Shown piece by piece: positions 11,552-15,263 of a stretch of DNA of 64,000 bases. The notes beneath the pieces were generated by a model that was not told where the DNA came from, did not search any database, and worked only from the letters and a program-made list of their open reading frames with translations. The translations under genes and the position numbers were made by a program. The DNA lies in NCBI GenBank assembly GCA_002840275.1, contig PHAB01000010.1, positions 47,162 to 111,161 of the forward strand, given 5' to 3'. Each line of letters starts with the position of its first letter. The first letter of the stretch is position 1. This DNA is from Firmicutes bacterium HGW-Firmicutes-14 (lineage in GTDB: Bacteria > Bacillota > Thermincolia > Thermincolales > UBA2595).

Positions 11552-11602
11552 TAAAAAAAAGAGGTCCCCGCTTCTGCAGCTTGTTGATGGGGCCTCTTTT
11601 TT
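11551..11602. terminator. Bidirectional terminator between convergent genes
   Basis: AAAAAAAAGAGGTCCCC pairs with GGGGCCTCTTTTTT around a loop of about 17 bases. A-run on one side and T-run on the other let it work in both directions, for the PRC-barrel gene (plus) and the YpiB-like gene (minus). Confidence 0.85.
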
Positions 11603-12146
11603 ACTCCACTATTTTCTTGAATTCCGCAGTAAGGTCAAAGAATTTTTCCTTGTCACCTTCCTGCAGTGCTAGGTCGATCTGGGCCAAAAGCGTTGTCTTG
11701 TGCCGTTCTTTGCAAATTATCGCACGGGTCAATTCCCATTCAAGCCTCTTAACCACCTGATGATAGAATATCTTGCGCCTTATATCCTGTTTATTATTTA
11801 AAACAGCCCGCTGCAGTGAAGATATTACTGTGGATTTAAAAGACAGACGGACAAAAAAGTCCTCGGGAGGGAGGGAATCCAGGAGATTCATTATTTCATC
11901 AATATCTTCATAATACCTGTCATTAAGCCGGCATAAAAAAGACACTGTTGATGAATCCACTGCAGAAATCAGCAGGGCATTGGGCAGGTATCTGACATCC
12001 TCAACAAAATGTGTCTTTATAAGCAGTTCCTCATTATCAATAAGAAACTCTAAAATTTTTGCCGTGTCAGACCGTTTTAGTCTGTGTTTTTCCAAGAACC
12101 AGTCTATATATTTTTTTTTCTTATAAACTAAAATTGCCTCTTCCAT
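11601..12146 (-). CDS. YpiB/UPF0302-family protein with IDEAL motif
   Basis: A 181-residue protein. Residues ~10-125 match the UPF0302 domain. The C-terminus (LLAQIDLALQEGDKEKFFDLTAEF, residues ~150-175 by position) has the shape of the short IDEAL domain found at the end of B. subtilis YpiB. The ATG at 12146 is preceded by AGGTGG five bases upstream and is preferred to an in-frame GTG at 12155. The molecular function of YpiB is not established. It lies downstream of the CODH-like gene with a 121-bp gap that holds no clear terminator, so co-transcription is possible. Confidence 0.75.
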   Translation of the reverse strand: MEEAILVYKKKKYIDWFLEKHRLKRSDTAKILEFLIDNEELLIKTHFVEDVRYLPNALLISAVDSSTVSFLCRLNDRYYEDIDEIMNLLDSLPPEDFFVRLSFKSTVISSLQRAVLNNKQDIRRKIFYHQVVKRLEWELTRAIICKERHKTTLLAQIDLALQEGDKEKFFDLTAEFKKIVE

Positions 12147-12267
12147 AATTACCACCTAAAACTTATAGTCAACTTAGGTAATATTCTAAGCTGTAATAAG
12201 AATTAGACACCGTTAGATAAAAACCTTTTGTGTAATAGGTGGTAATTTATGGCAAGCAGGTCCGGGG

Positions 12268-14181
12268 TTAATCCAAGCCTATTTTTATACGTTTTTTTAT
12301 AATATGTTTTTCAATACCCCATGCCGCTTCCTTCGGGTCATCACTCAGGAAGGCCTTTCCTCCGGTGACCTTCTCCAGTCCCTCGGTCAGGAATCTGAGT
12401 ACCCGGGGACCTCCCGTTACCTGGGGAAATGGTGATAAATGTGTATATAAACCAAACGGCAGGGCAAACATGGCATAAATTAAACCTTTTTGATCCAGGT
12501 ACTGGGACACCGAAACAGCCGCCGGCATATCTGCCGGGTCTATTCCCAACCGGTCTGCCAGGAGTGTTATAAGCATGGATACCCGTCCGGCATCGGCTGA
12601 TGTCCCAAAATTAAGCGCCGGCGGGATATTCCAGTTACGGCATATTTCCTGCAGACCCGGCCCCGCCAAACCGGCTGCATCATTATTACTCAACCCGGCA
12701 GCTCCCAGGCCGATGCTACCGCTCCCACAACTGACAACCAGGATGTCTCTTTTGATAAGCTCCCCTGCCAGCTTTACAGCCATATAATCATGAGGACCGG
12801 TCGAAAGGGTGGTACCGTTAACCAGAGCCGCTATCCCCTTTAGTTTTCCCTCTTTAATAGCCATGACCAGTGGTCCGGGGTCACCCCCCATCATGTTGAG
12901 AAGAGACTCTGTAGAAAAGCCTGCTATCACCCTGTTAGTATTTTGCGGAACTCCGCTGCCTGCATTTCCTTTCCGCTGCCGGAAATTTTCGACTGCCATT
13001 CCAATAAGTGTTTCGGCCAGCGACCCGGCTTCCGAAGGTTTATACGCAAGATTTCTCTCGACACCGGGAAGCCTCACCAACCCTCCGACAGTGACCAGTT
13101 TTACCCCGTACTTTGTTTCATAAGGTTTCAGGTTAGGCGGAGAACTTCCTGTATCCATAACAAATACATCTATAGTCCCGGTGGCAAGGGCCGGTTCTAT
13201 TGTCAGCCAGTTGCCGGTCAGGCCACGGAATATTTCATCTGCGGGCAAACGCTGCATCATTTCCTGCCCGGTTTCACAAGAGCCGATGATTCGGAGGCCC
13301 TTGGCTCCGGCATCCCTGGCGAACTGTTGAACCTTAGAATCCCTTGCCATATAATATGTGGCAAACCCAACCCAGGGCTGGTGCCCGTTAAACACAATAT
13401 TAACATAATCAGGCTCCAGGACCCCCAAGTCGACCTCTGCTTCATGAGGCTCAGGAGTACCTAAAAGTATATCCTGAACCATTTCCAGCCCCACCTGAGC
13501 CCCGTAAACAGTGGAAATACCGAGGCACATGGCTTTTCGAGCCAATGATACAAAATCTCCGTCTGTATTTGTCAGACAACTGGCTGCAGCATCTTTAATC
13601 TCAAAAAGGATGCCGGTGGGATATATCCCCAGGTCCCGCCAAAGTTTCTGCCGGGATACGGGAGTAAAGGCATCGATTATTTTGCTTGACTGCCCATAAC
13701 CACGGTGGAGTTCATACATTAAGAAATTACCCAACCCCAGGGCCACTTGTTCAGGGGTTCCATTGGTGGCAATCCCGCACCTCCCGGCAAACCAGTATAG
13801 TTTATTCCTGTCCATAATATTAAAGGGTGTCTTCCCTTCAGCCGTTGATTTCAAAGTTCTATACGCTTCATAAGCGTGATGTGCATATGCAGAAGCGCCC
13901 ATAATATTACGTAAGAGCATATCCCGCATAGCCATGGCATCCGGGCCTATACCACAGACCCCCAGTTCCGCACTGTATTCACTTGAAATACGGCAGGGTC
14001 CGTTAGTACAGAACTGGCAGCTGACCCCTGTGAGGCAATAATTACACCTAATCTTTTCCTGGGGTTCATAACGGTCAAAAGTGTTGTTCATTCCATCTTC
14101 CCGGAGTATTTCGTACATTTTCCGGACAGAATCATGGATACTGACCCTCCCGTCCAGCCGGTTTCGATTCCTGTCAGCCAA
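12268..14181 (-). CDS. Divergent anaerobic carbon monoxide dehydrogenase (CooS-family) protein lacking most C-cluster ligands
   Basis: A 637-residue protein, the normal CooS length, alignable from the N-terminal FeS region to the C-terminal TGGKAFLSDDP segment. Residues C46, C49, C55, C58, C63 and C76 (CNYC...SCQFC...GPC...GVCG) give the B-cluster Cys, while the D-cluster pattern is altered: the usual adjacent second Cys is Ser and an extra Cys creates CxxC. The His of the C cluster is kept (NGHQP, H267). The Cys sites differ: GSCETG has one Cys where CODHs have CC, DTGSS replaces DVQC, VNGTT replaces VGCNN, SCGSGS replaces TGCAA (Cys shifted), and GTSAD replaces GSCVD. Normal CO oxidation is therefore unlikely. 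The start is a TTG at 14181 with GGGGG upstream; a longer TTG start at 14232 lacks one. No cooC or acs genes are adjacent. Confidence 0.85.
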   Translation of the reverse strand: MADRNRNRLDGRVSIHDSVRKMYEILREDGMNNTFDRYEPQEKIRCNYCLTGVSCQFCTNGPCRISSEYSAELGVCGIGPDAMAMRDMLLRNIMGASAYAHHAYEAYRTLKSTAEGKTPFNIMDRNKLYWFAGRCGIATNGTPEQVALGLGNFLMYELHRGYGQSSKIIDAFTPVSRQKLWRDLGIYPTGILFEIKDAAASCLTNTDGDFVSLARKAMCLGISTVYGAQVGLEMVQDILLGTPEPHEAEVDLGVLEPDYVNIVFNGHQPWVGFATYYMARDSKVQQFARDAGAKGLRIIGSCETGQEMMQRLPADEIFRGLTGNWLTIEPALATGTIDVFVMDTGSSPPNLKPYETKYGVKLVTVGGLVRLPGVERNLAYKPSEAGSLAETLIGMAVENFRQRKGNAGSGVPQNTNRVIAGFSTESLLNMMGGDPGPLVMAIKEGKLKGIAALVNGTTLSTGPHDYMAVKLAGELIKRDILVVSCGSGSIGLGAAGLSNNDAAGLAGPGLQEICRNWNIPPALNFGTSADAGRVSMLITLLADRLGIDPADMPAAVSVSQYLDQKGLIYAMFALPFGLYTHLSPFPQVTGGPRVLRFLTEGLEKVTGGKAFLSDDPKEAAWGIEKHIIKKRIKIGLD

Positions 14182-14194
14182 TGGTATGGATCCC

Positions 14195-14223
14195 CCTTTA
14201 TCTAAATTACGGCATTCAATATT
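14195..14223 (-). promoter_or_regulatory. Weak candidate sigma-A promoter for the CODH-like gene
   Basis: On the minus strand TTGAGG and TAATTT are spaced by 17 bp just downstream of the prs terminator, ending about 15-20 bp before the TTG start chosen for the CODH-like gene. Both boxes are imperfect. If real, the longer TTG start (14232) could not be used, because it lies within the promoter. Confidence 0.3.
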
Positions 14224-14255
14224 CTTCCTCAACAGGTCTTATTTATTCCGGAAAC

Positions 14256-14293
14256 AAAAAGGAGCCGATTCAACGTTTGAATCAGCTCCTTTT
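14256..14293 (-). terminator. Rho-independent terminator after prs
   Basis: AAAAGGAGC-GATTCAA pairs with TTTGAATC-GCTCCTTTT (one mismatch) around a very short loop. On the minus strand it ends CTCCTTTTTGTTT. It closes the ispE-to-prs operon and separates it from the CODH-like gene. Confidence 0.9.
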
Positions 14294-14315
14294 CGTTTTT
14301 GGCCCAAAAGCCGTA

Positions 14316-15263
14316 TTACGCAAACAGTTTACTGACCGACAGGTCCTCATGTATTCTGATAATGGCTTCCCCCAGCAGAGGAGCCACTGACAGCACTCTT
14401 ATTTTATCGATCGCTTTATGCTCAGGAAGTGGTATCGTATTGGTTATAATCACTTCTTTTATGGGCGATTTCTCAAGCCTTTCTATGGCCGGTCCGGACA
14501 GTACACCATGGGTGCAGCAGGCGAATATTTCCTTTGCCCCGCGTTCCAGAAGGGCCTCAGCGCCCTGAGTAATGGTGCCTGCTGTGTCTATGATATCATC
14601 GATCATTATGATCGTCTTCCCGTTCACATCACCGATAATGTTCATAATCTCAGCCACATTTGGCTCAGGTCTCCGTTTGTCTATTATAGCTATAGCCGCA
14701 CCTATACGTTCTGCCATATCCCGGGAACGGGTAACCCCTCCCAAGTCTGGTGAAACAACCAACACATCTTCAAGGTTCTTACTGAGGAAGTATTCGGCCA
14801 ATATAGGCACCCCGGGCAGATGATCCACAGGGATATCAAAAAAGCCCTGAATCTGGCCTGCGTGAAGGTCCATGGTAATGACTCTCATGGCCCCGCTCGC
14901 TGTTATTATATTGGCTAATAACTTTGAAGTTATCGGGTCACGGGCCCTGGCCTTCCGGTCCTGCCTGGCGTATCCGTAATATGGGACTACTGCGGTAATC
15001 CTCCGTGCTGACGCCCTCTTCAGGGCATCAATAACAATCAGCAGTTCCATGATGTTCTCATTAACCGGCTCACAGGTAGGCTGGATAACGAAAACATCCG
15101 CTCCACGCACGCTCTCATTAATTTTAACATGGATTTCACCGTCACTGAATCTGGATACTTTCGATTCACCCATTGATACACCCAGGTATTCTGCAATTTC
15201 CTGGGCCAGGCTCAAATTAGCGTTCCCCGAAAAGATTTTGAGTTTCCGATTAAAAATTGGCAT
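14316..15263 (-). CDS. prs: Ribose-phosphate pyrophosphokinase
   Basis: A 315-residue class I PRPP synthetase. It makes PRPP from ribose 5-phosphate and ATP for nucleotide, His, Trp and NAD synthesis. Visible motifs: [14 protein letters not shown] at the N-terminus, the flexible loop YGYARQDRK with catalytic Arg/Lys, the [11 protein letters not shown] divalent-cation/allosteric segment, and the PRPP loop [11 protein letters not shown] at about residues 218-228. GGGAGG precedes the ATG. It follows glmU as in most Firmicutes. Confidence 0.98.

Follow-up and report, generated by a model that had tools for sequence, protein, structure and literature searches.

A CODH-V ortholog lacking the four cysteines of the hybrid cluster, a candidate pseudoenzyme of the carbon monoxide dehydrogenase family

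The window analysed here is a stretch of 64,000 nucleotides (contig PHAB01000010.1, positions 47,162 to 111,161) from Firmicutes bacterium HGW-Firmicutes-14. It contains a gene of the carbon monoxide dehydrogenase (CODH) family whose product has lost all four cysteines that anchor the active-site cluster in its closest characterised relative, CODH-V (CooS-V). We put the probability at roughly one half that this product is a CODH-V pseudoenzyme, a redox protein that would no longer catalyse at the old site and would rely on the relay formed by its B and D clusters. Read at the level of sequence, the gene combines orthology and synteny with an intact frame; its cluster ligands are replaced and its relay cysteines retained, its branch is long, and changes accumulate near the ligands. 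In window coordinates it is:

12268..14181, minus strand: CODH-V (CooS-V) ortholog, 637 amino acids, TTG start, TAA stop

The best structural yardstick for the protein is CODH-V of Carboxydothermus hydrogenoformans (PDB 7b7q), which it matches with 782 bits and 54% identity across 627 aligned residues; CODH-II reaches only about 259 bits. An initial annotation, made from the DNA alone, had named CODH-V for comparison, and this choice was sound. The protein scores 387 bits against Prismane (PF03063) and 692 bits against the NCBIfam model TIGR01702 (cut-off 478). In the tree it falls inside a CODH-V clade of 16 rows with 100/100 support, although so long a row cannot be placed with certainty and the outgroup, too, has very long branches. 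CODH-V constitutes structural group D-1, for which a type III (CxxC) D-cluster motif has been published (PMC6344411). The window protein shares with this group the CODH fold, full-length homology, a glutamate at position 303 and the type III D-cluster (C46 and C49), and lacks its four hybrid-cluster cysteines. Gene order points the same way. In four genomes of the same family (G003, G004, G005 and G006), CODH-V lies among the same neighbours, in the order PrsW, pth, L25, PRC, YpiB-like, CODH-V, prs, and glmU and spoVG are also shared where the sequence reaches them. The order in G007 agrees on the YpiB side, the only side covered, and in G009, from another family, the YpiB-like gene is the only shared neighbour found. 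The order and class searches covered ten genomes; no CODH-V match at E 1e-150 was present in three of the family's nine genomes. Within the window's own genome (G000) the gene is single copy, and a genome search found no backup CODH-V. Judged by alignment, tree and position, the gene is an in-place CODH-V ortholog and not a nickel CODH, and is neither a paralog nor a transfer.

CODH-V of C. hydrogenoformans (ChV) carries a [4Fe-3S-nO] hybrid cluster, whose ligands are Cys338, Cys449, Cys480, Cys521, Glu295 and Glu556, joined by His259 when reduced (PMC9311411). At these sites the window protein has S346, G456, S487, S528, E303, D563 and H267, respectively. In the nickel enzyme of D. vulgaris, DvCODH (Dv), the cubane is ligated by four cysteines and the pendant iron by His266 and Cys302; Cys301 is no ligand of the canonical cluster, but in the oxidised cluster it binds the pendant iron (PMC6168284). 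The positions compared, all on the minus strand, are:

13954..14046, minus strand: D-cluster C46 and C49 and B-cluster C55, C58, C63 and C76, all six kept
13381..13383, minus strand: H267, kept (ChV His259, Dv His266)
13273..13278, minus strand: C302, aligned with Dv Cys301, and E303, kept (ChV Glu295)
13144..13149, minus strand: N345 to G and C346 to S (ChV Asn337 and Cys338)
12814..12816, minus strand: C456 to G (ChV Cys449)
12721..12729, minus strand: C487 to S (ChV Cys480), with a cysteine two residues earlier, C485
12598..12600, minus strand: C528 to S (ChV Cys521, the persulfide cysteine)
12475..12495, minus strand: E563 to D (ChV Glu556), K565 kept, A566 to G, T567 to L, D569 to Y

By the standard of CODH-V, the protein has lost all four cysteine ligands. 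By that of a Ni-CODH the loss is five of five, because C302 matches the non-ligand Dv Cys301 and the adjoining ligand position is occupied by E303. The initial annotation had counted four of five C-cluster cysteines as missing; the loss is real and goes further than that, as the one it took to remain, C302, is not a canonical ligand. It had correctly read the altered motifs (DTGSS, VNGTT, SCGSGS, GTSAD, and CE within SCETGQ), the full length, and the retention of the B-cluster cysteines and the C-cluster histidine, and its view that a normal Ni-Fe cluster is not to be expected on what remains holds. The check it had proposed, alignment of the ligands to CODH-V, puts no cysteine at the cluster positions, and the frame is sound, with no error whose correction would restore one. 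Two supposed novelties turn out to be group features: the glutamate of CE is common to the whole CODH-V group, and the CxxC of the D-cluster, described as a change in this protein, is cysteine at both positions in 193/193 full-length homologs. C302 is a gained cysteine, since 204/204 other listed homologs carry isoleucine there, and the change needs at least two bases. At the C485 site, 10 of the 204 also have cysteine, and these keep normal ligands. Two further replacements are H490, close to the ligands in sequence, by I490, and a leucine by W517.

Compared with the enzyme of C. hydrogenoformans, then, the protein retains the fold, the B- and D-cluster cysteines with the CxxC D-cluster, and the His and Glu295 ligands, but differs in the four replaced cysteines, in aspartate for Glu556, in altered near-invariant residues nearby and in a much longer branch. 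With the Ni,Fe-CODHs (CODH-II, DvCODH) it shares the fold, the four B-cluster cysteines, the lysine of the acid-base pair and the match of C302 to Dv Cys301; only the histidine is left of the five cysteines and one histidine that bind cluster C, and CO oxidation is not expected from such a sequence. Nor does the protein resemble a hybrid cluster protein (HCP) at the site, as 0/4 aligned hybrid-cluster cysteine positions hold cysteine, whereas class III HCPs keep their own hybrid-cluster ligand set (PMC10502027).

We then asked how rare this loss is. The homolog set holds 204 proteins besides that of the window (205 in all), taken from the 120 matches listed of 3295 in one search and the 120 listed of 324 in a second, which used words from residues 335-535 only; most of the distant homologs of the first search lie outside it. 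The four cysteines, the Glu295 site and the histidine are present in 204/204 of the others, and among the matches listed in the search with residues 335-535 the window protein alone is without a ligand cysteine. A survey of Bacillota, which overlaps this set, covered 398 genomes and scored no more than three candidates in each; 89 genomes had a protein matching an intact relative. Its 102 matching proteins comprise that of the window, 62 complete CODH-V-type proteins with glutamate at 303, 37 with Cys303 and two incomplete CODH-V-type proteins; none of the 101 others has lost any of the four cysteines, the two incomplete ones being judged as far as they can be read. In a published table of 24 CODH structural groups, as far as the available text of the source shows, no group is without Cys3 to Cys5 and Cys2 is altered in clade B groups only, with 'a few exceptions' mentioned (PMC6344411). 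The open-licence literature searched contained no CODH pseudoenzyme and no loss of cluster cysteines in the CODH/HCP fold.

Two observations from the same survey concern related proteins. The 37 of 102 with cysteine in place of glutamate at 303 have valine, methionine or threonine at 302. Nine genomes (G175, G097, G117, G118, G083, G013, G059, G087 and G279) encode, besides CODH-V, a second protein 42-48% identical to protein P0002.

The CODH-V gene has also diverged out of step with its surroundings. Percent identities between the window and G003, followed by those between G003 and the Thermincola genome G005, are: prs, 91.4 and 92.4; spoVG, 90.8 and 90.8; pth, 73.9 and 71.1; YpiB, 50.0 and 50.8; L25, 54.4 and 53.9; PrsW, 64.9 and 62.0; mfd (partial), 63.1 and 64.9; PRC, 66.7 and 62.2; and glmU, 69.4 and 72.3. 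These nine neighbours diverge normally, and CODH-V breaks the pattern, with 67.7% between the window and G003 versus 85.6% between G003 and G005. Its branch in the tree measures 0.84, compared with 0.0076 to 0.10 in the other 15 clade rows (about 8 to 110 times longer), again with the long row's placement unsure. Over residues 1-300 the window protein is 71-73% identical to its relatives, which are 82-97% identical to one another; over residues 301-637 the corresponding figures are 63-65% and 86-98%. At columns conserved in at least 97% of the 193 full-length homologs, the window protein alters 30 of 195, against a median of 1 for the others. The altered columns number 5/72 in the N-terminal domain, 5/54 in the middle domain and 20/69 in the C-terminal domain (N-terminal versus the rest, p 0.013), and 18/52 within 7 residues of a ligand versus 12/143 elsewhere. 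Judged along the sequence, the changes concentrate near the ligands.

How such a pseudoenzyme would work can be outlined from these residues. The [4Fe-3S-nO] cluster would be unable to assemble on S346, G456, S487 and S528, and the old pocket would be empty or partly filled, with L567, Y569, I490 and W517 replacing threonine, aspartate, histidine and leucine. As in CODH-V, the dimer would still contain one [2Fe-2S] and two [4Fe-4S] clusters. This relay could carry electrons or sense the redox state; alternatively, the scaffold may bind a partner. Loss of the cluster would suit a role in which scaffold and relay outweigh catalysis. For clade D, a part in redox sensing or regulation has been proposed from co-occurrence (PMC13056359).

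A parallel in working principle, from an unrelated fold, is the 49-kDa subunit (NuoD) of complex I, a NiFe-hydrogenase large subunit that is without its former cysteine metal ligands and was reused; its new use, at the quinone site, is known.

Several points weigh against the pseudoenzyme. The homolog P0174 alters 31/198 near-invariant columns yet keeps all ligands (the next highest counts are 11 and 10; in a second analysis with a different threshold, P0174 altered 20 invariant columns). Because it changes as many columns with its ligands intact, the count of changes is not in itself unique to the window protein; the ligand loss is. The N-terminal domain, too, has evolved faster than in the relatives, so the excess change is not all at the site. 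An empty site leaves the retention of H267, E303 and K565 and the gain of C302 unexplained. As the window's genus has no other genome, the ligand loss rests on one genome, and a single lineage gives no means of showing that the new state is conserved; nor does CODH-V itself have an established role whose loss could be looked for as a phenotype. Neither a partner gene nor a promoter of its own was identified for the gene, and a consensus scan found no sigma-70-type site immediately upstream. Finally, a recent relaxation of constraint is possible, because synonymous divergence (dS) is saturated, with no finite value in four of six window pairs.

The kept residues give rise to a tentative alternative, a site reduced to one metal ion. 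The cubane cysteines would be lost, the pendant-iron side (H267, E303, D563, K565) kept and C302 gained, yielding a mononuclear metalloenzyme or a metal sensor. The ligation described for relatives is suggestive. In DvCODH the pendant iron is bound by His266 and Cys302, and by Cys301 when oxidised, and Lys556 can bind nickel on that side (PMC6168284); in reduced CooS-V the ligands of the exo iron are a sulfide, Cys521, His259 and Glu295 (PMC9311411). The window protein keeps the equivalents of this histidine, glutamate and lysine, has aspartate for Glu556, and carries its cysteine at 302 where the 204 listed homologs have isoleucine. However, retention of the histidine and glutamate is unremarkable when 34 of the 52 near-ligand invariant columns are kept, C302 is one of three new or rare cysteines and may have landed there by chance, and a number of replacements close to the ligands along the sequence bring in more bulk. 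The specific version, one metal ion on His267, Cys302, Glu303 and Asp563, wired to the intact B/D relay, is doubtful. If true, the protein would have given up the cubane half of its superfamily's most elaborate cluster, and its active site would be of a kind new to the CODH/HCP superfamily.

A non-functional gene, decaying and caught before its first stop codon, is unlikely. All four cysteine codons have become serine or glycine codons and the branch is very long, as decay would produce, yet the gene has no stop, frameshift or visible loss of constraint. By a leave-one-out measure the relatives carry 55 to 84 changes and the window gene about 114-143 more. We simulated neutral evolution from the relatives' consensus with 300 genes per step and substitutions only (no indels): stop-free genes numbered 0/300 at the observed 198 changes, 7/300 at 80, 49/300 at 40 and 116/300 at 20. 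Because almost no gene remains open at such change counts, most of the excess arose under constraint; a short late neutral phase, of about 40 changes, is possible. The ratio of nonsynonymous to synonymous rates (omega) is far below 1 in the two window pairs with finite dS (0.066 and 0.083), and the changes are unevenly distributed. The fold is predicted with high confidence, with a mean AlphaFold pLDDT (predicted local distance difference test) of 91.5, versus 89.4 for the control P0002; since the window model has the higher confidence around residues 521-570 and also in the B/D loops, which are unchanged, we draw no conclusion from this comparison.

Another Fe-S cluster on relocated ligands, for example C302, C485, H267 and E303, is improbable. 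Of the three new or rare cysteines, those at 302 and 485 do adjoin old ligand positions in sequence, but just these two are available, cysteine at 485 also occurs in listed homologs with normal ligands, and the literature searched offers no precedent. The initial annotation had favoured a different cluster and a different reaction, and on this point it is not borne out; total loss of the cluster is the simpler reading, because even the cysteines of the CODH-V hybrid cluster have been removed. A different metal site is possible. A sequencing, assembly or frame artefact is hardly credible: the same assembly does contain two damaged acsA copies resembling repeat collapse, but the CODH-V gene is single copy, in frame and in a conserved locus, and no frame error can produce substitutions at 30 nearly invariant codons.

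As initially annotated, the gene stands by itself, with prs on one side and a YpiB-like gene on the other. Its flanking features are:

14316..15263, minus strand: upstream neighbour prs, the same in same-family relatives where the sequence reaches
14253..14298, minus strand: hairpin in the interval from prs to the CODH gene, strong and with a T-run (fold z -7.2)
14192..14199, minus strand: probable ribosome-binding site AAAGGGGG, 10 nucleotides before the TTG
11601..12155, minus strand: downstream neighbour UPF0302/IDEAL (YpiB-like), the same in relatives

The open frame spans 12268..14232 on the minus strand, and the TTG at 14181 is the likely start, as it lines up with the relatives' starts and is preceded by AAAGGGGG. 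The hairpin is a predicted prs terminator, although the consensus scan did not list it; the CODH-V gene is therefore probably transcribed by itself. In the Thermincola-like loci L041, L049 and L011, a gene on the opposite strand, presumably DegV-like, lies between prs and CODH-V; the window has none. We considered whether a lost partner gene could be the cause and set this idea aside: the Thermincola relatives have this extra opposite-strand gene, and G003 has no clear gene there.

Elsewhere in the window's genome, the search showed a single canonical CODH that is intact (C39), along with two acsA-type copies, both damaged, and a pair of short HCP-like genes. The acsA-type copies (G000:C66:216-1930, L004, and G000:C4:2337-4095, L006) each carry a short deletion that breaks the gene, in both at one and the same position, adjoining a stretch identical between them, and the relatives' genes are intact; the damage looks like assembly collapse at a repeat, and a real change is also possible. 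The two short proteins (G000:C37:38142-39386, L005, and G000:C37:50989-52233, L003; frames of 475 and 436 amino acids) are HCP-like by resemblance. HCP-like genes also number two each in G004, G005 and G006 and three in G002. Replacement of CODH-V by HCP was rejected, since G004, G005 and G006 keep CODH-V yet have two HCP-like genes each.

Loss of the cluster cysteines with frame, locus and relay kept makes this gene a natural test of the CODH-V scaffold without its cluster. It also exposes an annotation blind spot for CODH-fold proteins without cluster cysteines. TIGR01702, an equivalog model for the CODH catalytic subunit, accepts the window protein well above its cut-off despite the absence of any cluster-C cysteine, and two recent surveys drop sequences with altered C-cluster motifs before analysis (PMC13240472, PMC11338639). 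Because the equivalog model accepts such proteins while surveys filter them out, they are either misnamed or discarded.
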